From Gammaproteobacteria bacterium (GTDB taxonomy: Bacteria > Pseudomonadota > Gammaproteobacteria > Steroidobacterales > Steroidobacteraceae): a DNA stretch of 64,000 nt. Positions within the stretch are counted from its first letter, which is position 1; each line of letters begins with the position of its first letter. The notes beneath the pieces are model-generated. The model had not been told where the DNA came from and searched no databases. It saw only the letters and a program-made list of their open reading frames with translations. A program made the translations under genes and the position numbers. The stretch is taken from assembly GCA_024642505.1 (NCBI GenBank), contig JAHEAZ010000006.1:1-64000 (forward strand), read 5' to 3'. This document shows, in pieces, positions 43,178-60,361 of this stretch.

Positions 43178-44611
43178 TTACCTGCCCCAGGCGTAACTGA
43201 ACTCCAGGTCCCACTGGTCCATCTTGAACTGCACCGTCTGGGTCGGATCGAAGTTCTGTGGTCCGCTGACCTTGACCTTCGGCGCATACATGAAGGCAAC
43301 ATTGAACTCGTTCCCGCCACCCATCTTGCGGGTCAAGCCTACCGTGTAGTGCTCCTCCATGACGCCCGGCGCAAGGATATTGAACGTCATCTGGTCCTCC
43401 GGGATGGGTTGGTCAGTCGTGCTGGCGCCGACCCGGAAGGTCCAGTCCTGCCCGTAATCCCATGCCGCACCGACGCTGTAGACGGTCATGTCCTGCCAGC
43501 CGAAACCGCCACCCCGCTTGCCGCCGAGGCAACTCTCCAGGTCGGTGCCGCCCGCGCCGGCCGTCGGGCAGGCAAACAGGTACTGGATCGGGTTGCTGAC
43601 CGAGGCGATACCCTCGTAGAAGATTTCCTGGACGCCGGCGGTGAGCGAGACCCCAGGCGTCGGCTTGAAGGCAACGCCGAAGTCGAGGTGTGCCGGCACG
43701 TCGAAGCCGCCTTTCTGGGCAAACAGGTCCCGGTACTTGTCGAACTCGGTCATCATGATCTCGGACGTGTAGCCGAGCGCCACGCTGAACCTGCTGGTCG
43801 GGTTCCACTGAAAGCCCAGCGAGCCGCCGATGCCGTAGCCCCAGTTATAGCCGTTGTTGGAGAGGTGCTGCGGGAAGGCTGCGCCACCACTTTCGGCAAA
43901 GGTCTTGGTGTAGGGAGCGAATGCCGACACGCCGATCGCGCGGAAGCGCTGGATACCGACGATGGCAGCCGCGCCGAGCGAGACGGTCTTCGTCGGATTA
44001 TTCCAGGCATAGGCAGTATTCAGGAAACCCTGCATCAGGTCCACGCCGGCAGTTCCTGCATTGCCTGTGAAGGAACCGCCGTAGGTGCCCGCGAAAGTCA
44101 ACGTCGGTGCCGGCCCCGGGCCGTCCGGATCAAAGGTCGCGTTGCCGCCCTGCCACTCGGTGTTCATGCCGCCGCGCGCATAGAAGGACAGTGCAATCGT
44201 GCCCTGCTCGCCGTGCTTCCAGCTCTTGGCCACGTAGGGAATGAAGAACAACTCGTTCTCGCTCGAGATGGAGTTGCCGGTCCGCGGGTCGCTGGTCGCG
44301 TCACCGACCGTGAAGGCCCCCATGGAATAAGCAACGTCCGGCAACTGGCTGGGCGTCGTCTTGTAGTCACGCATCGGACTGAACATCGAAATGCCGAGCT
44401 CGAGCCGCTCGCCGACGAATGCGATCCCCGCCGGATTGGAGGCCACCACCGCGACTTCCTGCGGGTCCGCGACGTTGGAGCCGGCCAGCGCCTTGCTCTT
44501 GGTGCCTACGCCGTGGGTGAGATAGCCGTTGGTAGCGTTGGCGCTGCCCGCCACCGCCATCGCCAACACGGAGGCCACCACTGCCAGAATCTTCTCGGAA
44601 CGGACTGTCAT
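43178..44611 (-). CDS. FadL/OmpP1 family outer membrane transport protein
   Basis: ATNGYLTHGVGTKSKALAGSNVADPQEVAVVASNPAGIAFVGERLELGISMFSP. Confidence 0.88.
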   Translation of the reverse strand: MTVRSEKILAVVASVLAMAVAGSANATNGYLTHGVGTKSKALAGSNVADPQEVAVVASNPAGIAFVGERLELGISMFSPMRDYKTTPSQLPDVAYSMGAFTVGDATSDPRTGNSISSENELFFIPYVAKSWKHGEQGTIALSFYARGGMNTEWQGGNATFDPDGPGPAPTLTFAGTYGGSFTGNAGTAGVDLMQGFLNTAYAWNNPTKTVSLGAAAIVGIQRFRAIGVSAFAPYTKTFAESGGAAFPQHLSNNGYNWGYGIGGSLGFQWNPTSRFSVALGYTSEIMMTEFDKYRDLFAQKGGFDVPAHLDFGVAFKPTPGVSLTAGVQEIFYEGIASVSNPIQYLFACPTAGAGGTDLESCLGGKRGGGFGWQDMTVYSVGAAWDYGQDWTFRVGASTTDQPIPEDQMTFNILAPGVMEEHYTVGLTRKMGGGNEFNVAFMYAPKVKVSGPQNFDPTQTVQFKMDQWDLEFSYAWGR

Positions 44612-44745
44612 GCATTCTCTCCCTCGGGCCGCCAGCAACTGATGGCGCCCGCTCAGTGCCCCATGATTGATACTTTCATGCTCGCAGCAGAGCGCCAGGC
44701 TCGCGCCGGTGACACCCGCTCAAGCTCGACTGGTGCAGTCCGCAA

Positions 44746-44973
44746 TCAGCTTTTCTTCCTGATCACGAATCTGAAAATCTTTCCGTCATTGTCCGACTCG
44801 ACCAGCTCGTGCCCGGTCGTGCGGCAGAAGGCCTGGAAATCCTTGATGCTGCCCGGATCGGTCGCAAGGATCTCGAGGGTCTGGCCAGCGGCCATCGGCT
44901 GCAGCGCCTTCTTGGCCTTGAGAATGGGCAAGGGGCAGTTGAGCCCCTTGGCGTCGAGTAACTGATCTGCCAT
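44746..44973 (-). CDS. tusA: TusA family sulfur carrier protein
   Basis: LLDAKGLNCPLPILKAKKALQPMAAGQTLEILATDPGSIKDFQAFCRTTGHEL (CPxP motif). Confidence 0.93.
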   Translation of the reverse strand: MADQLLDAKGLNCPLPILKAKKALQPMAAGQTLEILATDPGSIKDFQAFCRTTGHELVESDNDGKIFRFVIRKKS

Positions 44974-45013
44974 GTCGTCTTCCTGCCTCGTTGTTGCCTG
45001 CGCCGGCGGGCGC

Positions 45014-45505
45014 TCAGATAAACAAGTTGATGTCGGACTGGGTCGCGACTTCGATGTAGGTCGCTGCGCCGCCCAGTTCGATGCCTCCGATCATGTCGTC
45101 GAGCGAATATTCGAACAGGTCCATGGTCATCTGGCATGCGATCAGCCGCACCTCGGACTCGACCGCCAGCGAGCGCAGCTCCTCGATCGAAGCCACGCCC
45201 TTCTTCTTCATCATGTTCTTCATCATGGCCGTGGCGCCGGAGTCCACGAACGGGATCATGGACATGATGTTCGGCATGCCCATGTGCATTCCCGCCATCG
45301 GCATCTTCATCGCGGGGTTACCCAGCGGCGACATCTCGAGGCTGAGGTTCTTGAGCAGCAGCGGCAGCCCGTAGAACGTGAAGAACATGGTCACGTTCAG
45401 GCCGAGCGCAGCCGCGGTGGTGGAAAGAATGAAGGGCGGATACGCCCAGTCGAGCGTGCCCTTGGTGACGATGATGGACATGCTCTTGGTGCCGTCTTCA
45501 GACAT
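45014..45505 (-). CDS. DsrE/DsrF/DrsH-like sulfur carrier (DsrE3A type)
   Basis: MSIIVTKGTLDWAYPPFILSTTAAALGLNVTMFFTFYGLPLL...EVRLIACQMTMDLFEYSLDDMIGGIELGGAATYIEVATQSDINLFI. Confidence 0.88.
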   Translation of the reverse strand: MSEDGTKSMSIIVTKGTLDWAYPPFILSTTAAALGLNVTMFFTFYGLPLLLKNLSLEMSPLGNPAMKMPMAGMHMGMPNIMSMIPFVDSGATAMMKNMMKKKGVASIEELRSLAVESEVRLIACQMTMDLFEYSLDDMIGGIELGGAATYIEVATQSDINLFI

Positions 45506-45548
45506 AGTCTCCCCCTGCTGCAGGCCGTCTTGCCGCACATATAACAGG

Positions 45549-45567
45549 CTTTGCTTAATTAGCAAAG
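45549..45567. promoter_or_regulatory. Palindromic operator candidate between divergent dsrE3A and HDAC-like gene
   Basis: CTTTGCT-TAATT-AGCAAAG, perfect 7-bp arms. Confidence 0.5.
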
Positions 45568-45634
45568 CATAATAAGGTTGCCGCGCCTGACCGTCATCGG
45601 GGTCAGTTGCAGGATTGATGGTGGAGTTTACGAC

Positions 45635-46813
45635 GTGAATTCAGGTGCAGAATCCGTGGCTGCCGCAGCGCAGCATGACCCGGCGGTGACGGGCACAGCC
45701 GGGCGCGGCCGCGCCAGGTTCCTGGGCAGCCAGCTCGGCCCGCGGCCAGCGCTGGCCGGCCGCAACCACCCGCTCGCCATCGCGCGCGTGGCGACGGTCA
45801 TGGAGCTGAGCCGGCTGCTCGGCTGGCTGGATGCGGCCGACTTTCAGGCCAGCCCGCAGGCTACTGCCAGGCAACTCGCCAGCTTTCACACGCGCTCCTA
45901 CATTGCCGCGCTGCGACAGGCCGACGCGGCGCAGCAGGTCGAGAATTCGGTCCGCCAGCGTTATCACATCGGCAACTTCGAGAACCCGGTGTTTCCGGGA
46001 GTTTTTCGTCAGGCGGCGCTTGCCGTGGGCGGATCGATTCTCGCCGCCGAGCTGGCACTGGATGGCTACCTGCCCTTTCATCCCGCTGGCGGCACCCATC
46101 ACGGGCGACCCGACCGGGCGAGCGGCTTCTGTTTCTTCAACGATCCGGTCTTTGCCATCCTGACGTTGCTCGAGCGCGGTCTGGCGCGGGTCGCCTACGT
46201 CGATCTCGATGCACACCATGGCGACGGGGTCGAGGCGGCCTTTGCCGCCGAGCCGCGGGTCCGGGCAATCTCACTGCACGAAGCGGGCCGCTGGCCGCAC
46301 TCCGGGCTGGCGGCCGGTCGCGGGGCCGGCGGCGCGTTCAACCTGCCGGTGCCGCGTGGCCTGAACGACAGCGAGTTCGGCTGGCTGCTCGACGAGGCCA
46401 TCCTGCCGCTGATCGCCGGCTTCGTTCCCGAGGCCTTGGTGATAACCTGCGGAGCCGACGCCCTCGCCGGCGATCCGCTGGCGAGCATGAATCTCAGCAA
46501 CGTGGCGCTGTGGGATGCGGTGGACCGGCTCCGGGGCATGGCGCCCGCGACCGTGGTCCTCGGCGGCGGCGGCTATAACCCCTGGACGGTTGCGCGCTGC
46601 TGGACCGGACTGTGGGGCCGGCTGCGCGGCCGGGACATTCCCGCGGCGCTCCCGCAGGACGCCCGCTCACTGCTTGCGACACTCAGTTGCGACCTGGTCG
46701 ATGACGAGGATATCCGGCCCGAGTGGACGGCGACGCTTGCGGATCAGCCACGACATGGCAGGATTCGGCAGGAGATCCGTGAGCTGGCCGCCGCCGTGTC
46801 GCGTGCACAATGA
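45635..46813 (+). CDS. Histone deacetylase family (AcuC/HDAC-like) protein
   Basis: PAGGTHHGRPDRASGFCFFNDPVFAIL...VAYVDLDAHHGDGVEAAF...VITCGADALAGDPLASMNLS...LGGGGYNPWTVAR; GTG start inferred. Confidence 0.9.
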   Translation: MNSGAESVAAAAQHDPAVTGTAGRGRARFLGSQLGPRPALAGRNHPLAIARVATVMELSRLLGWLDAADFQASPQATARQLASFHTRSYIAALRQADAAQQVENSVRQRYHIGNFENPVFPGVFRQAALAVGGSILAAELALDGYLPFHPAGGTHHGRPDRASGFCFFNDPVFAILTLLERGLARVAYVDLDAHHGDGVEAAFAAEPRVRAISLHEAGRWPHSGLAAGRGAGGAFNLPVPRGLNDSEFGWLLDEAILPLIAGFVPEALVITCGADALAGDPLASMNLSNVALWDAVDRLRGMAPATVVLGGGGYNPWTVARCWTGLWGRLRGRDIPAALPQDARSLLATLSCDLVDDEDIRPEWTATLADQPRHGRIRQEIRELAAAVSRAQ

Positions 46814-46853
46814 ATGGCGGGCACGCGATGGTGCTGGATTGTCAGGAGGCAAG

Positions 46854-47891
46854 ATGAGCTGGCTGAATGCAATGCAGGGTCTTGAGGAGCTGGAGGACGC
46901 GACGCTGGACGGGGCGTTGGTCGCGGAATTCGAGGCCGCTTCGACCCTGGCTGTGGCGCGTCCCATACGCTTTTCGACACCGACGTTTCGCGACTACACC
47001 AGTACCGAGCTGCAGGGCTGCTCGAAGAACAGCTTCCCGTCGTTCTCGATCACCGGCGGGGCCTGTGGGCTCAACTGCGATCACTGCCAGGCCAAGATCC
47101 TGGAGCCGATGATTCCCGCGACCTCGCCCGAGATCCTCGACATGAAGGTCAGGCACCTGGTGCACACGCAGAACCTGCAGGGTTTTCTGCTCTCCGGTGG
47201 GTCGAGCCGCAGGAACGAGATCCGCTACGAGCGCTACTACCCGGTAGTCGAGCGCCTGAAGCGCGACTTTCCGCAGATGCGCATCGCCATCCATACGGCG
47301 CTGACCGATGAGATCGGCGCGCGTGCCATGGAAGCAGCCGGCGTCGACACGGCCATGATGGACGTCATCGGCGCCGCCGAGACTATCCGCGACGTCTACC
47401 ATCTCAACCGGCCGGTCGAAGACTTCGAGGCGACTCTTGCGGCACTGTGCACGACGTCGATGGAGATCACGCCGCACATCGTCATCGGCCTGCATTACGG
47501 GCGGCTGCTCGGTGAGACCAATGCACTCGACATAGTCGGGCGCCATCCGGTCAACGCGCTGGTGCTGGTGGTGATCATGCCGTTCTACGCAGCGCCGGGC
47601 ATGTTCGCGACGCCGGAGACCAGCGATGTTGGCCGGATCTTCCTGGAAGCGCGCCGCCGCCTCCCCGACAGGCAGGTGCTGCTCGGCTGTGCCCGGCCAC
47701 CCGGCATGCACAAGCGAGTGACCGACGCCTACGCGGTGATGGCTGGACTCGACGGCATCGCGTTCCCGGCCGACGGAACCGTCGCGGTCGCCGCGGCGGT
47801 GGGCCGGCCGTTCACGCAGGAACACGCCTGTTGCGCCATCAAGCTCGGACCCACCCGTGCCGCTGCGGCCACCAGCCCCTGCGCCGCCTGA
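46854..47891 (+). CDS. Radical SAM lipoyl-assembly protein (LipS1/LipS2 type)
   Basis: FPSFSITGGACGLNCDHCQAKILEPM (CX3CX2C), adjacent to a second radical SAM and a lipoate ligase in an shdr cluster. Confidence 0.78.
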   Translation: MSWLNAMQGLEELEDATLDGALVAEFEAASTLAVARPIRFSTPTFRDYTSTELQGCSKNSFPSFSITGGACGLNCDHCQAKILEPMIPATSPEILDMKVRHLVHTQNLQGFLLSGGSSRRNEIRYERYYPVVERLKRDFPQMRIAIHTALTDEIGARAMEAAGVDTAMMDVIGAAETIRDVYHLNRPVEDFEATLAALCTTSMEITPHIVIGLHYGRLLGETNALDIVGRHPVNALVLVVIMPFYAAPGMFATPETSDVGRIFLEARRRLPDRQVLLGCARPPGMHKRVTDAYAVMAGLDGIAFPADGTVAVAAAVGRPFTQEHACCAIKLGPTRAAAATSPCAA

Positions 47892-47930
47892 GCCGATCCA
47901 CGCCGGAAAGTCTACTGGAGTCAAGCAAGC

Positions 47931-49190
47931 ATGAGCTGCATCAAGAACACCAACGGCATCACTACCGACGGCACTTCCGACGGCCTGGGTTTCAACGCCT
48001 TTTCGGCCATGCAGCCGCGCGCCCCGGCCCGCACGCCGCAGGGACTGCGCAACGGACGCCGGGTCAAGGATGCGGACCTGCCGGCCGCGGGCGTGTACCT
48101 GCCGAACAACAACGTGCTGACGCCGCACATGCGCTCGCCTGAGTACGTGCAGATGTCGACGGCCGCAGCCATGACACTCGGGCTCATGCCCGGCAAGATG
48201 CACCGCTGCGACTGCACGCGCTGCCTGAACCTGTTGCTGACCTACCCGGAGGGCTGCCGCGCCAACTGCGCATACTGCGGCCTCGCACGGCACCGCGAAG
48301 CCGAGCGTGACTACGCCGACCGCAACTTCATCCGGGTCGACTGGCCGGCGGTGCCGATGGAGCAGGTTGTCGACATCGTCGCCCGGGACGTCGCCGGCAG
48401 TGCCTTCCATCGCATGTGCATTTCCATGATCACCCACCCGCGCTCGGACCAGGACACCGTGTCGGTGCTCCGGGCGTGGACCTCGCGTATCGACCCTGAG
48501 GCCATCCCGGTGTCGATCCTGTCCAACCCGACGACCATGACCGTTGAGGACGTGCGCCGGCTGAAGGACCTCGGTGCGGACATCTTTACCGTCGCTCTCG
48601 ACGCAGCGACGCCGGGGCTGTTCGACCGCACCCGCGGCAAGGGTGTGCAATCGCCGCACAAGTGGGACAAGTACTGGGAAATCCTGCTCGCCGCGCGCGA
48701 CGTATTTGGTCCACAGAAATTCGGCGCGCACATCATCATAGGCATGGGCGAGACGGAATATGAGGCACTGCAACTGGTGCAGCGGCTGGTAGACCTTGGC
48801 GGTCACAGCCACATGTTCTGCTTCTTCCCCGAGCAGGGAAGCTTGATGGACCACCTGCCGGCGACACCGCGGGACCAGTGGCGCAGGGTCCAGCTGGCGC
48901 GCTATCTGATCGACTATGCCGGCGTGCGGCTCGGGCAGATGACTTTCGACGAGCAGGGCCGGGTCAGCGACTACGGGCTGCCCGCCGCGGAGCTCGACGC
49001 GATCATCAACGACGGCGTGGCGTTTCGCACCTCGGGATGTCCGGGCAAGTTCCGTGAGGACGTCTCGGCCTGTGACCGGCCCTACGGCGACTCGCCGCCC
49101 AGCAACATTGCAAGCTTTCCGTTCCAGCCCAACAGGACCGACCTGCGCAAGATCCGCCGGCAGCTGGGCATCCCGGTCGTACGCGGCTGA
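47931..49190 (+). CDS. Radical SAM lipoyl-assembly protein (LipS1/LipS2 type)
   Basis: HRCDCTRCLNLLLTYPEGCRANCAYCGLARHREAERDYADRNFIRVDWP (CX3CX2C plus upstream Cys set). Confidence 0.78.
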   Translation: MSCIKNTNGITTDGTSDGLGFNAFSAMQPRAPARTPQGLRNGRRVKDADLPAAGVYLPNNNVLTPHMRSPEYVQMSTAAAMTLGLMPGKMHRCDCTRCLNLLLTYPEGCRANCAYCGLARHREAERDYADRNFIRVDWPAVPMEQVVDIVARDVAGSAFHRMCISMITHPRSDQDTVSVLRAWTSRIDPEAIPVSILSNPTTMTVEDVRRLKDLGADIFTVALDAATPGLFDRTRGKGVQSPHKWDKYWEILLAARDVFGPQKFGAHIIIGMGETEYEALQLVQRLVDLGGHSHMFCFFPEQGSLMDHLPATPRDQWRRVQLARYLIDYAGVRLGQMTFDEQGRVSDYGLPAAELDAIINDGVAFRTSGCPGKFREDVSACDRPYGDSPPSNIASFPFQPNRTDLRKIRRQLGIPVVRG

Positions 49191-49198
49191 CAGCCGGA

Positions 49199-50293
49199 AT
49201 GAAGAACGCCTTTCGTGTAGTCGACGCTGCCCTTCGCAACGGACGTTTCAACATCGCGCTCGACCAGGCCATGATCGAGCTGCACCAGTCGGCGCGGATT
49301 CCCGACACGATCCGCTTCATCCACTTTCCCCCGACCGCCCTGGTTGGCCGGCACCAGGTGCTAAGCCGCGAGATTGACCTCGGTTTTTGCGCAGCCCACG
49401 GCATCAGCGTCGGACGGCGCATCACGGGTGGCGGGGCGATATACCTGGACGAGGGCCAGCTCGGCTGGGCCCTGGTCTTCAACCGCGCGACCCTTGGCCT
49501 GGGCGCGCTCGGCGACGTGGCCAGGGCGATCTGCGAGGCCGTGGCCGCCGGCCTTTCCCGTTTCGGACTCGACGCCCGCTACCGGCCACGCAATGACGTC
49601 GAGGTCGACGGCCGCAAGATCAGCGGCACCGGAGGCTTCTTTGATGGCAACTCGCTCATCTACCAGGGCACGGTTCTGGTAGACATGGATCCAGGCCGCA
49701 TGATGTCGGCCCTGCAGGTGCCGGCCGCCAAGCTCGCACGTCACGGCGCGAGCAGCGCCGCTCAGCGCGTCGTCACCATGAGGGAACTGCTCGGCGCCGC
49801 TACGCCGACCATCACGGAGGTGCAGGCGGCGCTGCTCGACGGCTTCCGGGAGCGGCTCAGGCTCGACTGGTATCACGCCGAACTGACCGCCGAGGAGGAG
49901 TCGCTGGCACAGCGCCTGCATGACGAGGAAATCGGCACGGACGCCTTCGTTACCGAGATCGACGAACCGGCAGACAGCACGTTGCTTGCGACGGGAACAC
50001 ACGTCTGTCCCGGCGGCACAGTTACGGCGTTCGTCCGGCTCGAGGGGCAGGCCAGCGACCGCGTGGGGCAGGTGTTGTTTACGGGTGATTTCTTTGTCGC
50101 GCCCCCGCGCATTGTGTTTGACCTGGAGGCATCGCTGCAGGGCCTCGACAAGGCAGCCGCTGGCGAGGCCGTGGAACAGTTCTTCACGGATCGTGAACTG
50201 ACGGCACTGACGGTAACCCCTGTCGACTTCCGCCACGCAATCGAGGCGGCACTCCGGCATCGGCCCGACGGCCGGCGGGAAGGCAGGCCGTGA
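49199..50293 (+). CDS. Lipoate-protein ligase with LplA and LplB-like regions (sLpl(AB) type)
   Basis: FPPTALVGRHQVLSREIDLGFCAAHGISVGRRITGGGAIYLDEGQLGWALVF...RPRNDVEVDGRKISGTGGFFDGNSLIYQGTVLVDMD; extended C-terminal domain. Confidence 0.87.
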   Translation: MKNAFRVVDAALRNGRFNIALDQAMIELHQSARIPDTIRFIHFPPTALVGRHQVLSREIDLGFCAAHGISVGRRITGGGAIYLDEGQLGWALVFNRATLGLGALGDVARAICEAVAAGLSRFGLDARYRPRNDVEVDGRKISGTGGFFDGNSLIYQGTVLVDMDPGRMMSALQVPAAKLARHGASSAAQRVVTMRELLGAATPTITEVQAALLDGFRERLRLDWYHAELTAEEESLAQRLHDEEIGTDAFVTEIDEPADSTLLATGTHVCPGGTVTAFVRLEGQASDRVGQVLFTGDFFVAPPRIVFDLEASLQGLDKAAAGEAVEQFFTDRELTALTVTPVDFRHAIEAALRHRPDGRREGRP

Positions 50294-50985
50294 GAACCAT
50301 CGCCGTCGTTCAGCACACCTCAGCGGAATTCCTTGGGTTGATCGAAGACCACCTCGAGGGCCGGCGTATTCGCTTCCGTTACTACCGCCCCTTCACGTCC
50401 GGCGGCAAGCTGCCGGTGGCCGCCGACATGGCCGGCGGTCTGGTACTGCTGGGTGGCGGCCCCTGGGGCAGTGCTGGCGAACGAGACGTGCCGACCCTGG
50501 CGTCCGAAGTGGAGCTGGCGCGTCATGCCCTGGCCAGCGGTATACCGCTGCTGGGTATCGGCCTGGGCGCGCAGGTCCTCAGCATCGCGGCGGGCGGCGG
50601 ATCGGTCGCCGCGCCGCTGGTGTTCGACGTAGGGGAAGCCTTGCGCCAGCGCGAAGACGCGCTGCAGGGATTCCTGCCGGAATGTTTTCCGTTGGTCCGC
50701 TACATGCGCGACAGGCCCGTACTGCCCACGACTGCCGAGGTACTCGCCACCGACGTTGACGGCGAGCCCGCGGTGTTCCAGGTCGGCGGCCGTGCACTGG
50801 GCTTCACCGGACACCCGGGCATGAAGACGGCGATGGTCGAAGACCTGATCATGGAGTTCGCTGAGGGGCCGGTGGAGCCCGGTCCTGCACTCGACTCCCT
50901 GCGCGAGCGCCGACCGGCTATCGAGGATGCCCTGGTGCCGCTCATGACCGGCATTGTAAAGGTGCTGGGCCTGATGGAACCCTGA
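50290..50985 (+). CDS. Class I glutamine amidotransferase-fold protein, nucleophile Cys absent
   Basis: GIPLLGIGLGAQVLSIAAGGG (G in place of C of GxCxGxQ); GFTGHPGMK in place of HPE. Confidence 0.75.
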   Translation: MRTIAVVQHTSAEFLGLIEDHLEGRRIRFRYYRPFTSGGKLPVAADMAGGLVLLGGGPWGSAGERDVPTLASEVELARHALASGIPLLGIGLGAQVLSIAAGGGSVAAPLVFDVGEALRQREDALQGFLPECFPLVRYMRDRPVLPTTAEVLATDVDGEPAVFQVGGRALGFTGHPGMKTAMVEDLIMEFAEGPVEPGPALDSLRERRPAIEDALVPLMTGIVKVLGLMEP

Positions 50986-51043
50986 CGCCGGTTCCTCGTT
51001 GCCACGCCAGCCCTACAGGTGTTGGCAAAGGCCGCGGATTTAT

Positions 51044-51059
51044 ATTAGTGTCACCTAAT
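51044..51059. promoter_or_regulatory. Short dyad upstream of the dsrE-shdr operon
   Basis: ATTAG-TGTCAC-CTAAT, AT-rich context TTTATATTAG. Confidence 0.35.
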
Positions 51060-51124
51060 GCGTAACGCGGCGCACCCTATGCTGCGCTGCGGCATGGTTT
51101 ACGCCCAGCCCTGGAGACATCTGC

Positions 51125-51505
51125 ATGGCATCCAAGCTCGTCATCGTCATGGCCAACACCGATCCACGCAACGGCGAGGAACTCGGCGCTCCGATCTTCC
51201 AGGCGACCGTCGCCGCTGCGATGGAGTACGAGGTCGAGGTCATCTGCACTGCGACCGCGGGCCGATTGATGAAGAAGGGTGTCGCCGACAGGCTCTTCGT
51301 GAAGGAAGGCTCGCCCAAGAGCGTGTACGACTTCATCAAGGACGCGCACGAGGCCGGCGCGAAATTCTACTGCTGCTCGCCCAACCTCGACTTGCACGAG
51401 ATGACCCAGGAAGACCTGATCCCGGAATGCAGCGGCATCGTCGGTGGCGCGCACCTGATCGAGCAGATCATGGAGGACGACGACGTCCGGGTGATGACGT
51501 ATTGA
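51125..51505 (+). CDS. DsrE family sulfur carrier
   Basis: KLVIVMANTDPRNGEELGAPIFQATVAAAMEYEVEVICTATAGRLMKKGVADRL...KFYCCSPNLDLHEM; immediately upstream of shdrC1. Confidence 0.85.
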   Translation: MASKLVIVMANTDPRNGEELGAPIFQATVAAAMEYEVEVICTATAGRLMKKGVADRLFVKEGSPKSVYDFIKDAHEAGAKFYCCSPNLDLHEMTQEDLIPECSGIVGGAHLIEQIMEDDDVRVMTY

Positions 51506-51523
51506 AGACCGAGGGGTAACCGC

Positions 51524-52279
51524 ATGTCTCATGCGCACGGAACACGCATCCAGGAATTCATCGGCGACCCGGTCTCCGAAGCGCCCGTAGTCGGTCGCGA
51601 GAAGCTGGAGGAAATCTTCCAGGACATCCAGGCCGACATGCGTTTCGACCACGAGCTCAATGGCTGCCTGAACTGCGGCATATGCACAGCCACCTGCCCG
51701 TCCGCCCATTACTACGACTATAGCCCGCGCGAAATCGTGCAGCTGTTGTGGACCGAGAATCTCGAGGGTATCTACGACGCCATGCAGGAGAAGATCTGGG
51801 CCTGCGCCCAGTGCTACACCTGTGCGGCGCGTTGCCCCTTTGGCAATTCGCCGGGCGGGCTGGTCATGCTGATGCGCGAGGTAGCGATCAAGCACGGCAT
51901 GGAGTCGGCCCGCAACGTACTGCGTCCCTTCAGCCGCGTGATGCTGAAGCTGATCTCCACGGGCAACCAGCTGGCGCCCGACATGATCAGCAAGGACGCC
52001 TTCCCCGACTGGGGTCCGAACATTTCCAAGGTGGATGCGCCGCTCGCGACGCTGCGCAGGGCGATTCCGGTCCCGACCCTGCACACCACCAAGACTGCCT
52101 GGGAAGTGAACCTGAAGACCTCGGTCGAGCTCTACACCATCTGGGAAGAGACCGGCGTGCTCGACAGCCTGAAGACGATCGACACGAACCTGTTCGATGT
52201 CATCAGCGACATCATGGACGAGAAACGCGACGACTGGCAGGACTTCCTGGACGACCAGGAAGACGAGGATGATGAGTAG
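51524..52279 (+). CDS. shdrC1: sHdrC1, iron-sulfur subunit of sulfur-oxidizing heterodisulfide reductase-like complex
   Basis: LNCGICTATCPSAHYYDYSPREIVQLLWTENLEGIYDAMQEKIWACAQCYTCAARCPFGNSPGGLVMLMRE. Confidence 0.88.
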   Translation: MSHAHGTRIQEFIGDPVSEAPVVGREKLEEIFQDIQADMRFDHELNGCLNCGICTATCPSAHYYDYSPREIVQLLWTENLEGIYDAMQEKIWACAQCYTCAARCPFGNSPGGLVMLMREVAIKHGMESARNVLRPFSRVMLKLISTGNQLAPDMISKDAFPDWGPNISKVDAPLATLRRAIPVPTLHTTKTAWEVNLKTSVELYTIWEETGVLDSLKTIDTNLFDVISDIMDEKRDDWQDFLDDQEDEDDE

Positions 52280-52332
52280 CAGGCCCCGGGGCCGGTACCG
52301 TAGTAATTTTGCACTTTGAGGGGTAGAAGCAA

Positions 52333-53721
52333 GTGACGACGCCATACGACAAGAAGCCCGGTGAAGGTTTCGCGGGCCACAAGCCCGGTGAACGCTTCAC
52401 CGGTCATGGTGAGGAATGGAAGGACGCCAGCCTCAGCAAGAGCGACGCCGTGACCGCCACCGTCTGGGTCGAGCAGATCATCAACAAGCGCTCGATGCAG
52501 ACCAACAAGGACCGCGTCGAGGACGTCCGCGACGCCATGTGGCAGCTCGAGAAGGAAGGCGAGATCATCGTCCACCGCGTCACCGACGAGCACAAGCCGG
52601 TGATGACCAAGACGCTGTATGGCTGGGACAAGAAGATCCCAACCACGCGGCTGTGGCACCACAAGTCCTGCGGCCAGTGCGGCAACATCCCGGGCTACCC
52701 CGCCTCGTTGCTGTGGCTCATGAACAGGATGGACGTCGAGTACCTCGACGAGACCGACCAGACCTCCTGCACGGCCTGGAATTACCATGGTTCCGGCATA
52801 GGCAACATCGAGAGCCTGTCGGCGGTATTCCTGAGGAATTTCCACCAGGCCTACGTGGCTGCCAAGGCCCAGGGTCTGCCCGAGGGCTATTACTACCCGC
52901 TGGTGCACTGCGGCACTTCCTTCGGCAACTACAAGGAAGTGCGCGGCTACCTGATCCGCTCTGCCAAGCTGCGCGAACGGGTGAAGACCATTCTCGGCAA
53001 GCTCGGCCGCCTGGTCGACGGCAAGCTGCTGATCCCGGAGGAGGTCGTGCACTACTCCGAGTGGCTGCACGTGATGCGCAAGCAGGTGGCCAACCTGCAG
53101 GAAATCGACTGCAGCCACGTCAGGGCTACCATTCACCCGGCCTGCCACGTCTACAAGATGGTCCCCGAGGACGTCATCTACGACCAGGACGTGCTCGACG
53201 GCAATCGCGTCGCGGTGTCCACGGGCATCATCCAGGCGCTTGGCGCCCAGGTCATCGACTACTCGACCTGGTATGACTGCTGCGGATTCGGCTTCCGCCA
53301 CATCATCTCGGAGCGCGAGTTCACCCGCTCTTTCGCCATCGACCGGAAGATCCGCGTCGCCGTCGAGGAAGCGCATGCCGACGTCATGATCGGCCATGAC
53401 ACCGGCTGCATCACCACGCTCGACAAGAACCAGTGGATCAGCAAGGCGGCCGGCAAGCAGGTGCAGCTGCCGGTGCTGGCGGACTGCCAGTTCGCCGCCC
53501 TGGTCTGCGGCGCGCACCCCTACAAGATCGTGCAGTCGCACTGGCACGCCTCCTCGACCGAGACGCTCATGGAGAAGCTCGGCATCGACTGGCAGGCGAA
53601 GAAGGCGGAGTTCGAAGCCTATTTGAAGGATGTCGCGGAAGGCCGCGGCGAAAACCTCTATGACCCGCGGCGCATGATCACCTCGGGTCCCGGCTACAAG
53701 AGAATCAGCAGGCAAGCATGA
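52333..53721 (+). CDS. shdrB1: sHdrB1, CCG-domain subunit
   Basis: SCGQCGNIPGYPASLLWLM...TSCTAWNYHGSGIGNIESLSAVF...HPACHVYKM...YDCCGFGFRHIISEREFTRSF; GTG start. Confidence 0.88.
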   Translation: MTTPYDKKPGEGFAGHKPGERFTGHGEEWKDASLSKSDAVTATVWVEQIINKRSMQTNKDRVEDVRDAMWQLEKEGEIIVHRVTDEHKPVMTKTLYGWDKKIPTTRLWHHKSCGQCGNIPGYPASLLWLMNRMDVEYLDETDQTSCTAWNYHGSGIGNIESLSAVFLRNFHQAYVAAKAQGLPEGYYYPLVHCGTSFGNYKEVRGYLIRSAKLRERVKTILGKLGRLVDGKLLIPEEVVHYSEWLHVMRKQVANLQEIDCSHVRATIHPACHVYKMVPEDVIYDQDVLDGNRVAVSTGIIQALGAQVIDYSTWYDCCGFGFRHIISEREFTRSFAIDRKIRVAVEEAHADVMIGHDTGCITTLDKNQWISKAAGKQVQLPVLADCQFAALVCGAHPYKIVQSHWHASSTETLMEKLGIDWQAKKAEFEAYLKDVAEGRGENLYDPRRMITSGPGYKRISRQA

Positions 53722-54764
53722 ACCAGCCCATCCTCATCGTCGGCGCGGGCCCTGCGGGCCTCGCGGCCGCCCACGCACTGGCCCGCGTCGGCCAGAGGTC
53801 CGTACTGGTGGAGAAGGAAGACCGCCTCGGTGGCGCCCCGATCCTCTCCGGCTACGCCAAGCTCGTGCCCTCCGGCGAATGGGCCAGGGACGCGATCGGC
53901 GGCATGGTCCAGCGCGTCGAATCGGAAACGCTGGTGGAGGTCCGCAAGGGAGTTAAGGTCGCCGCGTTTGATGGCGCGCCCGGAAACTTCACGGCGACGC
54001 TGTCGGACGGCACCTCGGTGCGGGCTGGTGCGGCGATCCTTACCACGGGGTTTACGCATTTCGACTCGCTCAACAAGCCCGAGTGGGGTTTCGGCACCTT
54101 CCCGGACGTCGTGACCACGACCCAGGTCGAGCAGATGATCTCCTCCGGCCAGGGCGTGCGCTGCCCGTCGGATGGCCGCAAGCCCAAGCGGGTCGCCATC
54201 CTGCTCTGCGTCGGCTCGCGCGACCGCCAGATAGGCCGCGAGTGGTGCTCGAAAATCTGCTGCACGGTCTCCGCCAACATGGCGATGGAGATCCGCGAGG
54301 AATTGCCAGACTGCCACGTTTACATCTACTACATGGACATCCGTACCTTCGGCCTGTACGAGACCAAGTACTACTGGAAGAGCCAGGAAGAGTTCAAGGT
54401 CAAGTACATCAAGGCCCGCATCGCAGAGGTCACCTCGGATGGCGACAAGTTGATCGTCAAGGGCGAAGACACCCTGGTGAAGCGCCCGATCACCATCCCC
54501 TTCGACCTGGTCGTGCACGCCATCGGCATGGACCCCAATGTCGACAACAAGTCGATTTCCTCGGTCTTCGGCGTCGACCTCGAGCCGCACGGCTACCTCG
54601 GCCGCGGCAACTTTTACGGCAACACGGCCGAAACATCGCGCGCGGGTGTGTTCGTCGCCGGCGCGGCGACCGGGCCCGAGACGATCGACGACTCGATCGC
54701 CCAGGGCAGTGCGGCGGCGCTGGCGGCGCTTGGTGCATTGCAGCCGGCGCGCGCGAGCGCCTGA
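53718..54764 (+). CDS. shdrA: sHdrA, FAD-binding subunit
   Basis: PILIVGAGPAGLAAAHALARVGQRSVLVEKEDRLGG...RVAILLCVGSRDRQIGREWCSKICCTVSANMAMEIRE. Confidence 0.92.
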   Translation: MNQPILIVGAGPAGLAAAHALARVGQRSVLVEKEDRLGGAPILSGYAKLVPSGEWARDAIGGMVQRVESETLVEVRKGVKVAAFDGAPGNFTATLSDGTSVRAGAAILTTGFTHFDSLNKPEWGFGTFPDVVTTTQVEQMISSGQGVRCPSDGRKPKRVAILLCVGSRDRQIGREWCSKICCTVSANMAMEIREELPDCHVYIYYMDIRTFGLYETKYYWKSQEEFKVKYIKARIAEVTSDGDKLIVKGEDTLVKRPITIPFDLVVHAIGMDPNVDNKSISSVFGVDLEPHGYLGRGNFYGNTAETSRAGVFVAGAATGPETIDDSIAQGSAAALAALGALQPARASA

Positions 54765-54773
54765 GGCCGCGCG

Positions 54774-55637
54774 GTGGGCTTTCTTTCCAGGCGCGTGAAC
54801 CCGGCCGAAGCGCCCAGGCCGCACCTCGACCTGAGCGGCCCGCGGCTGGAGTCGACGCTGGCGCGGCTCGCTGCCGGCTGCGAACCGCAGGGTGGCCTCG
54901 AGCGCTACGTCGAGGCGCTCAAGCTCAAGTCGGCGCTGTTCAAGCAGGCGCTCGAGGACGACCCGGCCGGCCTGGAGGCGTCAACCTTCAAGCAGCTGTG
55001 CGCCTTCATGTCCACTGTCCGGCGCCGCATAGGACCCTGGCTGGAGGAACCTGGCTTCAACGAGGTCCGTGGTGCCCTGGTCGAACTGCTGGCGGCACGG
55101 ACGGAGACCCACGCAACGGACGAGCGGATAAAGTCCTTCTGCGGCAGCTTCGCCGACCGGACGAAGCACCGCTGGGTGCGCGACCTCGCCGCCGAAGTGC
55201 TGCATAACGTGGACCCGGAACGTTTCCCGCTGATGAACCGCTGGGTCTGGGACGCCGGGACCAACACCGGGGTCATTCGCGAGATATGGCATGCGGCGGA
55301 CCTCGACCACATCCGCATCGCCGTGCCCGATCGCTACGACACCTTCCTGGTGTTACGCGAGGAGTTGTCGCAGTACCTGGCCGGCAAGGGCTTCTTCCGC
55401 GACGTGACCTGGTACGTGGACCTGCTCTGCGCCCAGGTCTACGCCGAGTACATCGGCGAACAGGGTGGCAGCTACCTGCGGACTGATTTCGCCGCCGAGG
55501 AGGACCCGATGCAGCACACCCGCCGGCTGCTGGGCCTCGACGGCGTGCAGGCGGGCTCGGGCCGCACGCGGCTCAAGACCATCGATGGAGCGGCGTTCGT
55601 CCTGGTGGACGACGCCCGGACAGAGCAACTGGACTGA
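54774..55637 (+). CDS. Conserved hypothetical of the shdr operon (Hyp)
   Basis: Position between shdrA and shdrC2; GTG start; 287 aa, no recognised catalytic motif. Confidence 0.8.
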   Translation: MGFLSRRVNPAEAPRPHLDLSGPRLESTLARLAAGCEPQGGLERYVEALKLKSALFKQALEDDPAGLEASTFKQLCAFMSTVRRRIGPWLEEPGFNEVRGALVELLAARTETHATDERIKSFCGSFADRTKHRWVRDLAAEVLHNVDPERFPLMNRWVWDAGTNTGVIREIWHAADLDHIRIAVPDRYDTFLVLREELSQYLAGKGFFRDVTWYVDLLCAQVYAEYIGEQGGSYLRTDFAAEEDPMQHTRRLLGLDGVQAGSGRTRLKTIDGAAFVLVDDARTEQLD

Positions 55638-55662
55638 CGACCCGCTCAGCAAGGACAACTGC

Positions 55663-56442
55663 ATGCCAATTCACGAGCAATCGCTCATCCGGCCCGAAAA
55701 CCTGAAGACCCATGACGAGCTGGTCATGGACGGCGTGGACGTCTCCGGCCACTGGAGCACCTTCATCGAGTCGCGGGTGGTCACCGACTACAACGAGGCG
55801 ATGCAGGACGAGATCGCCGCGCTGCCGGGCGGGGAGCATATCCACCGCTGCTGGCAGTGCGGCTCCTGCACCAATTCCTGCACGGTGAATGCGATCAACC
55901 CGGACTTCAACCCGCGTTACTGGATCTATCTCGCGCGGATGGGCATGGAGTCCGAATTGCTGCGCGACAAGGACATCATCTGGCAGTGCGTCTCGTGCAA
56001 CAAATGCACTTACGCCTGCCCGCGCGATGTGGTGCCGGAGGGCGTCATGAAGGCCATGAGCCACTGGCTCGAGCTCAAGGGCCATACGCCGATGTCGCCC
56101 TCGATGCACTTCGACGAGGTGTTTGCCGATCAGGTCATCGAGCGCGGCAAGATCGAGGAAAGCCGGGTCATGCAGCGTTTCTTCAAGCGCACCGGCCAGC
56201 CGTTGTTCCAGGACTGGTTCGTCGAGATGGTGAAGCAGATGCTCCGCCACCTGCCGGTGGGGATGCTGGCCCGGATGGGGCTGGCCAGCGTGCTGGCACC
56301 CAGCACCAGCGGCTGGTCGCGCGCCCGCGACGCAATCCGCGAATACGCGGACGAGCAGCACGGCAAGCACAGGCGCGCGCTGGGCCTCGACAATCTGATC
56401 GAAACGGCCAAACAGGACGCGGGCGCGCCCGCCCGGAGCTGA
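55663..56442 (+). CDS. shdrC2: sHdrC2, iron-sulfur subunit
   Basis: CWQCGSCTNSCTVNAINPDFNPRYWIYLARMGMESELLRDKDIIWQCVSCNKCTYACPRDV. Confidence 0.88.
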   Translation: MPIHEQSLIRPENLKTHDELVMDGVDVSGHWSTFIESRVVTDYNEAMQDEIAALPGGEHIHRCWQCGSCTNSCTVNAINPDFNPRYWIYLARMGMESELLRDKDIIWQCVSCNKCTYACPRDVVPEGVMKAMSHWLELKGHTPMSPSMHFDEVFADQVIERGKIEESRVMQRFFKRTGQPLFQDWFVEMVKQMLRHLPVGMLARMGLASVLAPSTSGWSRARDAIREYADEQHGKHRRALGLDNLIETAKQDAGAPARS

Positions 56443-56444
56443 CG

Positions 56445-57380
56445 ATGGCAACCAACCCGGACAAGTACAAGCGGGTCGCCTACTACCCCGGCTGCGCGCT
56501 GGAAGGCACGGGACATGCCTACAACCGCTCGACCAAGGTCGTCGGCAAGGCGCTCGGGCTCGACCTCGTCGAGGTCAAGAACTGGAACTGCTGCGGCGCG
56601 ATGGAAGTCAAGAACATCGACCCGAAGATCCAGACCTACCTGTCCTCGCGCGTCATGTCCATCGCTGCCAACGAGATGGGCTTCGACACGGTGATGGCAC
56701 CCTGCAATGGCTGCTACCACAACCTGAAGAAGGCCGAGTACGACCTGACGAACGACGCCAAGAGCGCCGAGGTCGTGGACCGGCTGTCGAAGAAGGCCGG
56801 CCACGAGACCTACCAGGCCGGGCAGGTCGAGACCATCCACGCGCTGGACTGGATCAAGGACTCGATCGGCGAGGAAGGGCTGCGTGAGCGCGTGCAGAAC
56901 TCGCTCAAGGGACTGAAGATTGCGAATTACTACGGCTGCATGTACACGCGGCCGCGGCACATTTTTCCGGAGAAGGACCAGGGGCCAGGCAGCGAGTCGA
57001 CCTCGAAGCCCCATTTCATGGACGACCTGCTGGCCGCCGCGGGTGCCGAGAACGTGGACTTTCCGCTGAAGACGGCCTGCTGTGGCGGCGCGCACACCCT
57101 CTCCGACAGCGACACATCCACCAAGCTGGTGCTCAACATTTTGAATGCCGCGGAGGCCTCCGGAGCCGAGGTGATCGCGACCGAATGCCCGACCTGTCAT
57201 TCCGGGCTGGAGATGCACCAGATCCGCGCCGAGAAGCGGCTCGGCCGCAAGACTTCGGTGAAGATCGTCTACTTCACACAGCTGATCGGGCTGGCGCTTG
57301 GCCTGTCGCCACGGCAGGTTGGCCTGCACGAGAACATCTCGGATTCGATTGGCTTCATGAAGTCGAAGGGCATCGCCTGA
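56445..57380 (+). CDS. shdrB2: sHdrB2, two CCG domains
   Basis: YYPGCALEGTGHAYNRSTKVVGKALGLDLVEVKNWNCCGAMEVK...APCNGCYHNLKKAEY...ACCGGAHTLSDSD...ATECPTCHSGLEMHQ. Confidence 0.9.
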   Translation: MATNPDKYKRVAYYPGCALEGTGHAYNRSTKVVGKALGLDLVEVKNWNCCGAMEVKNIDPKIQTYLSSRVMSIAANEMGFDTVMAPCNGCYHNLKKAEYDLTNDAKSAEVVDRLSKKAGHETYQAGQVETIHALDWIKDSIGEEGLRERVQNSLKGLKIANYYGCMYTRPRHIFPEKDQGPGSESTSKPHFMDDLLAAAGAENVDFPLKTACCGGAHTLSDSDTSTKLVLNILNAAEASGAEVIATECPTCHSGLEMHQIRAEKRLGRKTSVKIVYFTQLIGLALGLSPRQVGLHENISDSIGFMKSKGIA

Positions 57381-57793
57381 TGACCCTTGCCGAAATCGGG
57401 GCCAGGCTCGAGCTGCTCGAGGCTTGCGGCGGGGCGCCGGGTGATGCCCCCGAGCTGCTGGCGCTGTCCGAGGAAGTGCTCGAGCACTGGATCGCGGCGC
57501 GGGGCGGCTCCCCGACGCAGGAGCAGCGCGAAGGATTCCGGCTGCTGGCGCTGCACCGCCAGGGAAGTCGCGACCTGCCGAGCTTCAATGCCTGCCGTGA
57601 GACCTGCCGCGAGCTGGTTTATCATTACAATCTGCTGACCCTGCAGCCGGACGATGAGAACGCGGCACAGCGGGCACGGATGATGGTCCTGGTGGCCAAT
57701 CATCTCTTTCTGTTCGTGTCCGGCAAGATGCAGGTCGAACAACTCGGAGAATTCTGCTGCTCGTCCCGGCCGCTGCGCCAGGAAGCGGGCTGA
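57380..57793 (+). CDS. Hypothetical 138-aa protein between shdrB2 and lbpA
   Basis: Translationally overlapped with shdrB2 (TGATG); no recognised domain; C-terminal EFCCSSRP. Confidence 0.7.
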   Translation: MTLAEIGARLELLEACGGAPGDAPELLALSEEVLEHWIAARGGSPTQEQREGFRLLALHRQGSRDLPSFNACRETCRELVYHYNLLTLQPDDENAAQRARMMVLVANHLFLFVSGKMQVEQLGEFCCSSRPLRQEAG

Positions 57794-57821
57794 AGCGGGT
57801 CCACTGGTAAGGAGATTGAAG

Positions 57822-58265
57822 ATGGCCAACGTACGCGGATGCAACCTGCCCGACGAACTGCTCTACGACGTCGCCAATCACATCTGGTTCCAGGAAACCG
57901 GCGACGGCAACGTCAAGGTCGGCATGACCGCCGTGGCCACCGCGATGGCCGGCCGCCTGGTTGCCTTTACGCCGAAAGGTGTCGGCAAGACCGTCAAGCC
58001 GGGCAAGTCCTGCGCGACGGTCGAGTCCGGCAAGTGGGTCGGGCCCGCCAAGGTCGCTGCCGGTGGCGAGGTGGTGGCCGTGAACGAGGCCATGGCGGCC
58101 AATCCGAGCCTCGCCAATGCAGATCCCTATGGCGAGGGCTGGCTGGTCGTCCTGAAGCCGGAGGAATGGGATGCCGTCAAGCCGACTCTGGTCCCCGGTG
58201 CGGCCGTAGCCGGGCCATACGAGGAAAAGATGGCTGCAGACGGCTTTGCCGGCTGCGGCGGCTGA
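57822..58265 (+). CDS. lbpA: LbpA, GcvH-like lipoate-binding protein
   Basis: VKVGMTAVATAMAGRLVAFTPKGVGKTVKPGKSCATVESGKWVGPAKVAAGGEVVAVNEAMAANPSLANADPYGEGWLVVLKP; lipoyl Lys in ESGKWVG. Confidence 0.92.
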   Translation: MANVRGCNLPDELLYDVANHIWFQETGDGNVKVGMTAVATAMAGRLVAFTPKGVGKTVKPGKSCATVESGKWVGPAKVAAGGEVVAVNEAMAANPSLANADPYGEGWLVVLKPEEWDAVKPTLVPGAAVAGPYEEKMAADGFAGCGG

Positions 58266-58299
58266 TGCTTCACCTGGATTCCCGCAAGGATCGTGGCCC

Positions 58300-58626
58300 A
58301 TGACGGTTCCCGCCAGCGAGCTCGATTTCAGCGAAATGCAGGAAAGCGCGGGCAAGGCTTGTGGCCTGCTCAAGGCCATGGCCAACGAGGCGCGGCTGAT
58401 GGTCCTGTGCCAGCTGATCGAGGGTGAGAAATCTGTCAGCGAGTTGCAGGACACGGTCGGGCTCAGCCAGTCGGCAATGTCTCAGCACCTCGCCGTGCTG
58501 CGCGACCAGGACATCGTGGCCACCCGCCGCGATGGCCAGTCCGTCTACTACCGGATCTCCAATCAGGACGCCACCGCGCTGATGGAGACCCTGCACCGGC
58601 GGTTCTGCGAGACGCCCGGCAAGTAA
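58300..58626 (+). CDS. ArsR family repressor (sHdrR/SqrR/BigR-like)
   Basis: LKAMANEARLMVLCQLIEGEKSVSELQDTVGLSQSAMSQHLAVLRDQDIVATRRDGQSVYYRISN; cysteines at N-terminal, central and C-terminal helices. Confidence 0.88.
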   Translation: MTVPASELDFSEMQESAGKACGLLKAMANEARLMVLCQLIEGEKSVSELQDTVGLSQSAMSQHLAVLRDQDIVATRRDGQSVYYRISNQDATALMETLHRRFCETPGK

Positions 58627-58707: not shown

Positions 58708-59175
58708 ATGTCCCCAATATTGGTTCTTGGTGTGGGCAACACGCTGATGTCCGACGACGGCGTCGGCGTGCGGCTCCTGGAACACCTCCAGGCGCTGCAG
58801 CCACCGCTGGCAGGCGTCGAGTACATCGACGCCGGCACGCTGAGTTTCGTGCTCCTGCCAGATATCCAGGCGTGTCGCGCGCTGCTCGTGCTCGATGCGG
58901 CACAACTGGGTGAAGCTCCCGGTACCATCCGGTCGCTGGCTGGCGTCGAAATGGACGATTTCCTGCGAACCGCCCGCTGCAGCGTCCACGAGGTCGGCAT
59001 CCGCGACCTGCTCGACCTGGCACGTCTCACCGACGCGCTACCCGATCGGCGCGCGTTCATCGGCGTGCAGCCAGCCGAAACCGGCTGGGGCGAAGCGCTC
59101 AGCCCTGAGGTCACCACCTCCCTGCCAGCCGCAGTGGCCGAGGCGCGGAGGCTGCTCAACGACTGGTCCACCTGA
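58708..59175 (+). CDS. [NiFe] hydrogenase maturation protease (HynD/HyaD-like)
   Basis: ILVLGVGNTLMSDDGVGVRLLEHLQAL...VEYIDAGTLSFVLLPDIQACRALLVLDAAQLGEAPGTI...SVHEVGIRDLLDLARL. Confidence 0.92.
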   Translation: MSPILVLGVGNTLMSDDGVGVRLLEHLQALQPPLAGVEYIDAGTLSFVLLPDIQACRALLVLDAAQLGEAPGTIRSLAGVEMDDFLRTARCSVHEVGIRDLLDLARLTDALPDRRAFIGVQPAETGWGEALSPEVTTSLPAAVAEARRLLNDWST

Positions 59176-59305
59176 CGGCACCGAGCTGGACTGCGGGATC
59201 TACCTAGAGGACCGCGCCCAACGATTATTGCGGCTTCATCACCAAACGCTAATGTAACCGTGCAGCCGGCCCTGACAGGGCCACGGTATCTGACGGGGGA
59301 TTTAC

Positions 59306-60361
59306 ATGGCGACATCGACACTCGGCGAATACCTGCGCGCGCGCGGCGTCTCCCGCAGGCAATTTCTCAGGTTCTGCGCGACCAGCGCATCGCTCATGGC
59401 ACTGCCGCCGTCCATGGTGCCGCGCATCGCCGCGGCGCTGGAAGTGGCGCGCCGCCCCTCGGTGATCTGGCTGCCCTTCCAGGAATGCACGGGCTGCACC
59501 GAGTCCATCACCCGCGCTCACGGTGCGACGATCGAGAGCCTGATCTTCGAGGCCATCTCGCTCGATTACCAGCACACCCTGCAGGCCGCCGCGGGCGAGG
59601 CGGCCGAGCACGCCCGCGAGAAGGCGATGAAGGACAACTGGGGCAAGTACCTGCTCATCGTCGACGGATCGATCCCGACCGCCAATCCGGGCTACGGCAC
59701 CATTGCAGGGGTCAGCAACCTCGAGATGCTCAAGGAGGCTGCAAGCGGTTGCGCCGCGGTGGTCGCGGTCGGCAGCTGCGCGGCATTCGGCGGTATTCCG
59801 CAGGCCAACCCGAACCCGACCGGCGCCGTGTCGGTCTCCGACGTGGTGAAGGACAAGCCGATCATCAACATCTCGGGCTGCCCCCCCATTCCGGTCGTGA
59901 TCACCGGAACCCTGGTGCAATACCTGACCTTCGGAAAGATTCCCGAACTCGACGCGCTTGGCCGACCGAAAGCCTTCTACGGCCAGAACATTCACGACCG
60001 CTGCTACCGGCGGCCCTTCTATGAGCGCGGCCAGTTCGCCGAAAGCTTCGACGACGAGGGCGCCAAGAAGGGCTGGTGCCTGTTCAAGCTCGGCTGCAAG
60101 GGCCCGGTTACCTACAACGCCTGCGCAACTACGAAGTGGAACAACGGCACCAGTTTCCCGATCGAGGCCGGCCACGGATGCATCGGTTGCTCGGAACCGA
60201 AGTTCTGGGACAAAGGCGGCTTCTATCAGCCGCTGTCGGCCGGTGACTGGGGATCCGGCAGGACCATCGCTGCCGCCGCCGGCGCCGGCGTGGTGCTCGG
60301 TGCGGCGGCCGCGGCGCTGGGCCGCAAGCGGCAGAAGGACGTGGAGGCCAAGCAATCATGA
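59306..60361 (+). CDS. [NiFe] hydrogenase small subunit
   Basis: Tat signal VSRRQFLRFCATSASLMAL; VIWLPFQECTGCTESITRA; ISGCPPIPVVITGTLVQYL; GHGCIGCSEPKFWDKGGFYQPL; C-terminal TM. Confidence 0.95.
   Translation: MATSTLGEYLRARGVSRRQFLRFCATSASLMALPPSMVPRIAAALEVARRPSVIWLPFQECTGCTESITRAHGATIESLIFEAISLDYQHTLQAAAGEAAEHAREKAMKDNWGKYLLIVDGSIPTANPGYGTIAGVSNLEMLKEAASGCAAVVAVGSCAAFGGIPQANPNPTGAVSVSDVVKDKPIINISGCPPIPVVITGTLVQYLTFGKIPELDALGRPKAFYGQNIHDRCYRRPFYERGQFAESFDDEGAKKGWCLFKLGCKGPVTYNACATTKWNNGTSFPIEAGHGCIGCSEPKFWDKGGFYQPLSAGDWGSGRTIAAAAGAGVVLGAAAAALGRKRQKDVEAKQS

Follow-up and report, generated by a model that had tools for sequence, protein, structure and literature searches.

The window analysed here comprises 64,000 nucleotides, positions 1 to 64,000 of contig JAHEAZ010000006.1 (assembly GCA_024642505.1), from a gammaproteobacterium of the family Steroidobacteraceae whose draft genome (3.1 Mb, 156 contigs) is 96.5% complete. 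In its interval 44746-58626, the minus strand encodes tusA and dsrE2, and the plus strand carries, in this order, an HDAC-family gene, lipS1, lipS2, slpl(AB), lipX, dsrE3, shdrC1-B1-A-H-C2-B2, shdrI, lbpA and arsR. Sequence comparison indicates that this island is very probably a complete sulfur-oxidation locus of the type I sHdr-LbpA kind, a confidence that applies to the identity of the sHdr-LbpA system and not to the role of the HDAC. A preliminary description, made from the letters alone, had named TusA, DsrE carriers, a radical SAM pair, a ligase, C1-B1-A-Hyp-C2-B2 and LbpA, and all of them are open reading frames (ORFs) within the interval. The HDAC gene, LipX, sHdrI, the sHdrR-like ArsR protein, the Isp hydrogenase next to the island and the missing LipT were not mentioned in it.

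Gene content and identity of the sHdr-LbpA core

The features of the island are the following:
44746..44973, minus strand: TusA sulfur carrier (NCBIfam TusA 73 bits, slightly below the 78-bit cut-off; Cys13)
45014..45565, minus strand: DsrE2 sulfur carrier (NCBIfam equivalog NF047629 227 bits, above cut-off)
45578..46813, plus strand: HDLP-type (class I-like) HDAC-family Zn deacylase (PF00850 E 1e-67; exact start uncertain)
46854..47891, plus strand: LipS1 radical SAM lipoyl synthase (NCBIfam LipS1 184 bits; CX3CX2C; an earlier ORF start is possible)
47931..49190, plus strand: LipS2 radical SAM lipoyl synthase (NCBIfam LipS2 183 bits; CX3CX2C)
49199..50293, plus strand: sLpl(AB) lipoate/octanoate-protein ligase (PF21948, TIGR00545; C-terminal LplB match, residues 270-352)
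50290..50985, plus strand: LipX, class I glutamine amidotransferase (PF00117; overlaps the ligase stop)
51125..51505, plus strand: DsrE3-type sulfurtransferase (PF13686/PF02635)
51524..52279, plus strand: sHdrC1 (HdrC models; eight-Cys 2[4Fe-4S] pattern)
52333..53721, plus strand: sHdrB1 (HdrB models)
53718..54764, plus strand: sHdrA (616 bits to PDB 6tjr)
54774..55637, plus strand: sHdrH, or Hyp (no Pfam/NCBIfam match; conserved among 25 aligned sequences)
55663..56442, plus strand: sHdrC2 (HdrC/QmoC-type ferredoxin pattern)
56445..57380, plus strand: sHdrB2 with two CCG domains (PF02754 twice; TIGR03288)
57380..57793, plus strand: sHdrI, or Hyp2 (alignment; helical bundle in the AlphaFold2 model, predicted local distance difference test (pLDDT) 90)
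57816..58265, plus strand: LbpA lipoate-binding protein (PF01597; ESGKWVG; tree position apart from GcvH)
58246..58626, plus strand: ArsR-type repressor, sHdrR-like (overlaps lbpA; alignment to HlyU-type regulators)

The sHdr-LbpA assignment of the preliminary description was supported both by protein similarity and by synteny. The sHdrA protein matched that of Hyphomicrobium denitrificans (PDB 6tjr) over 337 residues at 616 bits (E 1e-184), whereas methanogen HdrA gave at most 186 bits. Type I sHdr has been defined by the presence of shdrC1B1AHC2B2 in a single cluster (PMC11582611), and in the window C1, B1, A, H, C2 and B2 follow each other in that order at 51524-57380. The locus thus agrees with this definition and, as a consequence, its core is already known. 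LbpA is a GcvH-like protein with a single lipoyl domain (PF01597) and a target lysine, and, as had been anticipated, it does not group with GcvH: it was separated in the tree from both the GcvH of the same genome and that of Escherichia coli (SH-like approximate likelihood ratio test (SH-aLRT) 98), and its target-lysine motif is ESGKWVG, in contrast to ESVKAAS in these two proteins. Adjoining the shdr genes, the ArsR protein encoded at 58246-58626 retains both cysteines, which align with those of HlyU-type sulfane sensors. The known sHdrR is likewise an ArsR repressor, in which two conserved sensor cysteines matter (PMC12423496).

The two "hypothetical" proteins correspond to sHdrH and sHdrI, the small one being matched to sHdrI by position; both have already been named and the function of both is unknown (PMC11582611). 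No Pfam or NCBIfam model matched sHdrI, whose alignment displays the invariant residues C72, C76, C126, C127, H59, H82 and H108, and a fold search with its predicted structure yielded nothing significant (weak HEPN-like matches; best E 0.24). The AlphaFold model of sHdrH was only moderate (pLDDT 74.5).

The gene order of the island is repeated in dozens of related genomes, with protein identities mostly of 45-96%, which excludes a chance grouping. LipS1 was found in 53 of the 396 genomes of the order and in 8 of 399 genomes of a phylum sample, and wherever LipS1 loci were fetched the same island surrounded the gene; it was not found in the plasmid collection. An Rfam search did not reveal any RNA element within 43-64 kb. 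Presence and absence across the host genome were judged by single-family searches of the draft. DsrA had no match in this 96.5% complete draft, and SoxB had none above cut-off, its sole model match being a fragment of 54 bits, where 550 are required. The statement that dsrAB and sox genes are missing from the window therefore extends to the draft genome for DsrA and for SoxB above cut-off, and the core brings an already known lithotrophic pathway into an uncultured lineage of gammaproteobacteria in which neither SoxB nor reverse Dsr was found and in which the pathway is linked with RuBisCO and a hydrogenase.

Lipoyl-assembly genes and the associated HDAC

LipS1, LipS2 and the fused ligase are encoded together at 46854-50293, which is the gene set of the sLpl(AB)-LipS1/LipS2 route. 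The radical SAM motifs are CGLNCDHC in LipS1 and CRANCAYC in LipS2, both of the CX3CX2C type, and the ligase (49199-50293) is an LplA-type protein with a C-terminal LplB-like domain. The overlap of lipX with the ligase gene is similar to that already described (PMC10332631). Telling against these identifications, the scores were below the NCBIfam cut-offs (LipS1 184/230, LipS2 183/270 and LplAB 117/550 bits, the LplAB model being of the "exception" type and made for another ligase). The LipS1 and LipS2 models were each the best family match for their protein and, given the scores, the assignment rests on best family, motif and context. A match to LipT was not detected in the draft genome nor in most close relatives, while others do have it; this oxidoreductase is present in about half of the LipS1/S2 bacteria and is not obligatory (PMC10332631). 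Canonical LipA is encoded elsewhere in the genome and GcvH on another contig. Hence the local lipoyl set constitutes a second, dedicated route, as also occurs in other sulfur oxidisers (PMC6067878).

The lipoyl-assembly operon has a conserved accessory in the HDAC-family protein, whose gene ends at 46813, leaving a gap of about 40 bp to the conserved lipS1 start near 46854. Of the 38 further LipS1 loci whose upstream sequence is 600 bp or longer, 34 have the HDAC gene on the same strand and at most 124 bp upstream of lipS1; when the window and a locus truncated at the end of its contig are added, it stands beside lipS1 in 36 of 40. The HDAC-positive loci belong to seven families, three of the order and four further. 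All 40 genomes compared (20 with and 20 without LipS1) also carry a separate, more distant HDAC paralog, and a branch with 100/100 support splits the 37 cluster-type HDACs from these paralogs. The zinc ligands and the catalytic His, Asp and Tyr are invariant in all 37, and the foot pocket of these proteins is of the open type, with the motifs XGGTHH and GGGY. The best solved match of the window protein is HDLP of Aquifex aeolicus (PDB 1c3r/1c3p, 261 bits), which scores 201-258 bits to cluster-type HDACs and 128-154 bits to the paralogs; HDLP forms a long branch with an unsure placement in the trees. PADLOC left the HDAC unmatched, and we found no open-access paper tying an HDAC to the sHdr/lipoyl pathway, subscription papers and supplementary tables being outside this search.

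Two of the 37 cluster-type proteins (genomes G138 and G157) are located elsewhere in their genomes. In both, the HDLP-type HDAC gene adjoins a hydrogenase-4/complex-I-like operon (loci L122 and L123), and G157 has no LipS1. The tryptophan found at HDLP position 198 was considered as a mark of cluster HDACs and was dropped, as unlinked relatives also have it. The divergent promoter region between dsrE2 and the HDAC gene contains a perfect palindrome, GCTTTGCTTAATTAGCAAAGC (45548-45568), which divides into GCTTTGCT-TAATT-AGCAAAGC. A similar site at that place was present in only 3 of 33 relatives, so that as a repressor site this sequence stays a lead, a candidate operator.

The link between this HDAC and the lipoyl cluster is also supported by their co-occurrence (cluster-type HDAC, called at more than 430 bits or, in G292, from an adjoining fragment, in 18/20 genomes with LipS1 versus 1/20 without it), in counts uncorrected for relatedness. 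Several observations weigh against a strict bond. In the phylum sample, 18 LipS1-negative genomes from other classes, probably alphaproteobacteria, have the same HDAC subfamily at 43-53% identity, and in those contexts that were read the genes have unrelated surroundings; the branch between cluster-linked and unlinked proteins has only moderate support (81/88). Furthermore, G023, G262 and G138 carry the lipoyl cluster without an HDAC beside lipS1, and G401, with a more distant LipS1, has none. From these clusters it follows that the HDAC is not essential.

As regards its role, it is quite possible, if somewhat short of probable, that the HDAC is a usual regulator of the AcuC-like kind, with central enzymes (for instance acetyl-CoA synthetase) as targets of deacetylation, and that it is co-expressed with lipoyl assembly while acting outside the pathway. 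The solitary occurrence of the same subfamily in LipS1-negative genomes and its position beside the hydrogenase-4-like operon in G138 and G157 favour this explanation; however, the distant paralog present in 40 of 40 genomes could do that job, and the slot upstream of lipS1 has been maintained across seven families. The more specific role favoured here, which must be taken as tentative and in itself rather unlikely, is that of a dedicated de-octanoylase or lipoamidase that would edit or recycle the acyl group of LbpA and thereby feed sLpl(AB). Such an enzyme would hydrolyse the acyl-lysine of LbpA, or of a protein related to it, and so recycle octanoate or lipoate or remove wrong acyl groups. 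The bacterial lipoamidases known to us are either Sir2-like or of the Lpa type. The XGGTHH/GGGY foot pocket has been tied to acyl-chain promiscuity and long-chain deacylation, and an octanoyl-lysine peptide was the best cleaved among the substrates of Bacillus subtilis AcuC (PMC11532494). The target lysine of LbpA lies in S-G-K, like the natural AcuC site in acetyl-CoA synthetase, a suggestive parallel and not evidence of binding. The HDLP-type HDACs unlinked to LipS1 in 18 genomes and the four clusters devoid of the gene speak against a strict role of this kind. If true, editing of LbpA would provide a physiological substrate for HDLP-type bacterial deacylases. A conserved zinc deacylase in a lipoyl operon offers a direct and cheap test, and the HDAC linkage matters more than the core.

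Neighbouring genes and proposed pathway

The island is flanked by the following genes:
43178..44638, minus strand: FadL/OmpP1-family outer-membrane protein (Pfam PF03349)
58708..59175, plus strand: hydrogenase maturation protease (PF01750)
59306..60361, plus strand: [NiFe] hydrogenase small subunit, HynS (PF14720, PF01058)
60358..61047, plus strand: Isp1, DsrM/TmcC-like membrane subunit
61041..62417, plus strand: Isp2, DsrK/HdrD-like Fe-S subunit (CCG and Fer4 domains; DsrK model 229 bits)
62414..64000, plus strand: [NiFe] hydrogenase large subunit, HynL (PF00374 725 bits; continues beyond the window end)

The FadL-family gene recurs beside tusA or arsR in relatives (30-57% identity), and its product may import octanoate or hydrophobic sulfur species. 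Directly downstream of the island (58708-64000), the maturation protease gene is followed by HynS, Isp1, Isp2 and HynL in one operon (59306-64000), the arrangement of Isp-type (group 1e) [NiFe] hydrogenases; the group was assigned by gene order and not by HydDB. HynL was present in 18 of 20 genomes with LipS1 versus 2 of 20 without it, again in counts uncorrected for relatedness. Its operon lies downstream of arsR in the window, behind lbpA in loci L020 and L035, and in genus g20 (L049, L081) between shdrI and lbpA. In genera g7 and g10 it is found upstream of fadL, with the order HynS-Isp1-HynL-Isp2; in family f7 it is near tusA, and in Pseudaquidulcibacter (L134/L135) it comes after slpl(AB). 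The sHdr island of several relatives has no hydrogenase nearby, and G023 and G346 gave no HynL match at all. A second Isp-like [NiFe] large subunit, 60% identical, is encoded elsewhere in the host genome (G000:C87:78697-80304). In three f7 genomes, Isp1-Isp2 (DsrMK/HdrED-like) pairs occur near the sHdr island without HynS/HynL (L058:9687-11255, L064:1998-4034 and L066:7013-8878). Such pairs are a possible membrane partner for sHdr electrons, and electrons might also pass directly between Isp2 and sHdr.

About 12-17 kb beyond the window end, on the same contig (76-81 kb; locus L037 is this continuation), reading of the translations identified the RuBisCO large subunit, an adjoining CbbX-like ATPase, FBPase, a PRK-like gene and a LysR regulator. 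Together with the island and the Isp hydrogenase, this group is read as a compact lithoautotrophy region, and the host is apparently an autotrophic gammaproteobacterium.

Lipoylation of LbpA, sulfur oxidation and sulfite as product are inferred by homology, as is every step of the pathway proposed here. TusA, DsrE2 and DsrE3 would hand sulfane sulfur to the sHdrC1B1AC2B2 complex; with LbpA as its partner carrying the lipoyl group, this complex would oxidise the sulfur to sulfite. sLpl(AB), which requires free octanoate or lipoate, would load either of them onto LbpA, and LipS1/LipS2 would insert sulfur. The ArsR protein would switch the island genes through sulfane-sulfur sensing, and the adjacent Isp hydrogenase would open to the cell H2 as a second electron donor, or S0 as acceptor.

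The system could also be considered to run in reverse, the Isp hydrogenase supplying electrons of H2 for the reduction of sulfur compounds, so that the island would serve hydrogen-dependent sulfur reduction. Group 1e hydrogenases are thought to support hydrogenotrophic sulfur respiration (PMC7735108) and the linkage of hydrogenase and island is recurrent, but the characterised sHdr systems are oxidative (PMC6067878, PMC10332631) and the islands of several relatives, as well as G023 and G346, do without the hydrogenase as described above. We consequently regard the reverse direction as improbable. Still far less credible is that the CCG and Fe-S proteins form an anaerobic Hdr or Qmo-type complex outside sulfur oxidation, as the matches to generic HdrB, HdrC and QmoC models would allow; the similarity of sHdrA to 6tjr and the entire sulfur-carrier and LbpA context oppose it. 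Returning to the oxidative sHdr-LbpA locus, the identification of its core with a known system is well supported, and the HDAC and hydrogenase linkages are the points of specialist interest.

Comparison with known systems

The island resembles the type I sHdr-LbpA locus of H. denitrificans (PMC6067878, PMC10332631, PMC11582611) in shdrC1B1AHC2B2, sHdrI, lbpA, lipS1, lipS2, slpl(AB) and lipX, in the TusA and DsrE3 carriers and the ArsR repressor, and in sHdrA, at 616 bits. It differs from that system by the HDAC-family gene upstream of lipS1 and the Isp hydrogenase downstream, and searches of its draft genome gave neither a lipT match nor a SoxB match above cut-off. Two CX3CX2C radical SAM proteins and a fused ligase clustered with their target protein are shared with the described sLpl(AB)-LipS1/LipS2 assembly (PMC10332631), in which, unlike here, LipT is the electron donor and there is no additional HDAC. 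The window HDAC is, like Aquifex aeolicus HDLP (1c3p/1c3r) and the bacterial classical deacylases (PMC11532494), a member of the arginase-deacetylase family with all zinc and catalytic residues, and can be aligned with HDLP as far as residue 403, through its C-terminal part; in contrast to HDLP, it has W in place of the tunnel residue F198 and its context is lipoyl assembly. Finally, the order HynS-Isp1-Isp2-HynL is that of the Isp-type group 1e [NiFe] hydrogenase of Acidithiobacillus ferrooxidans (PMC7735108), whereas the operon of the window is contiguous with an sHdr island.

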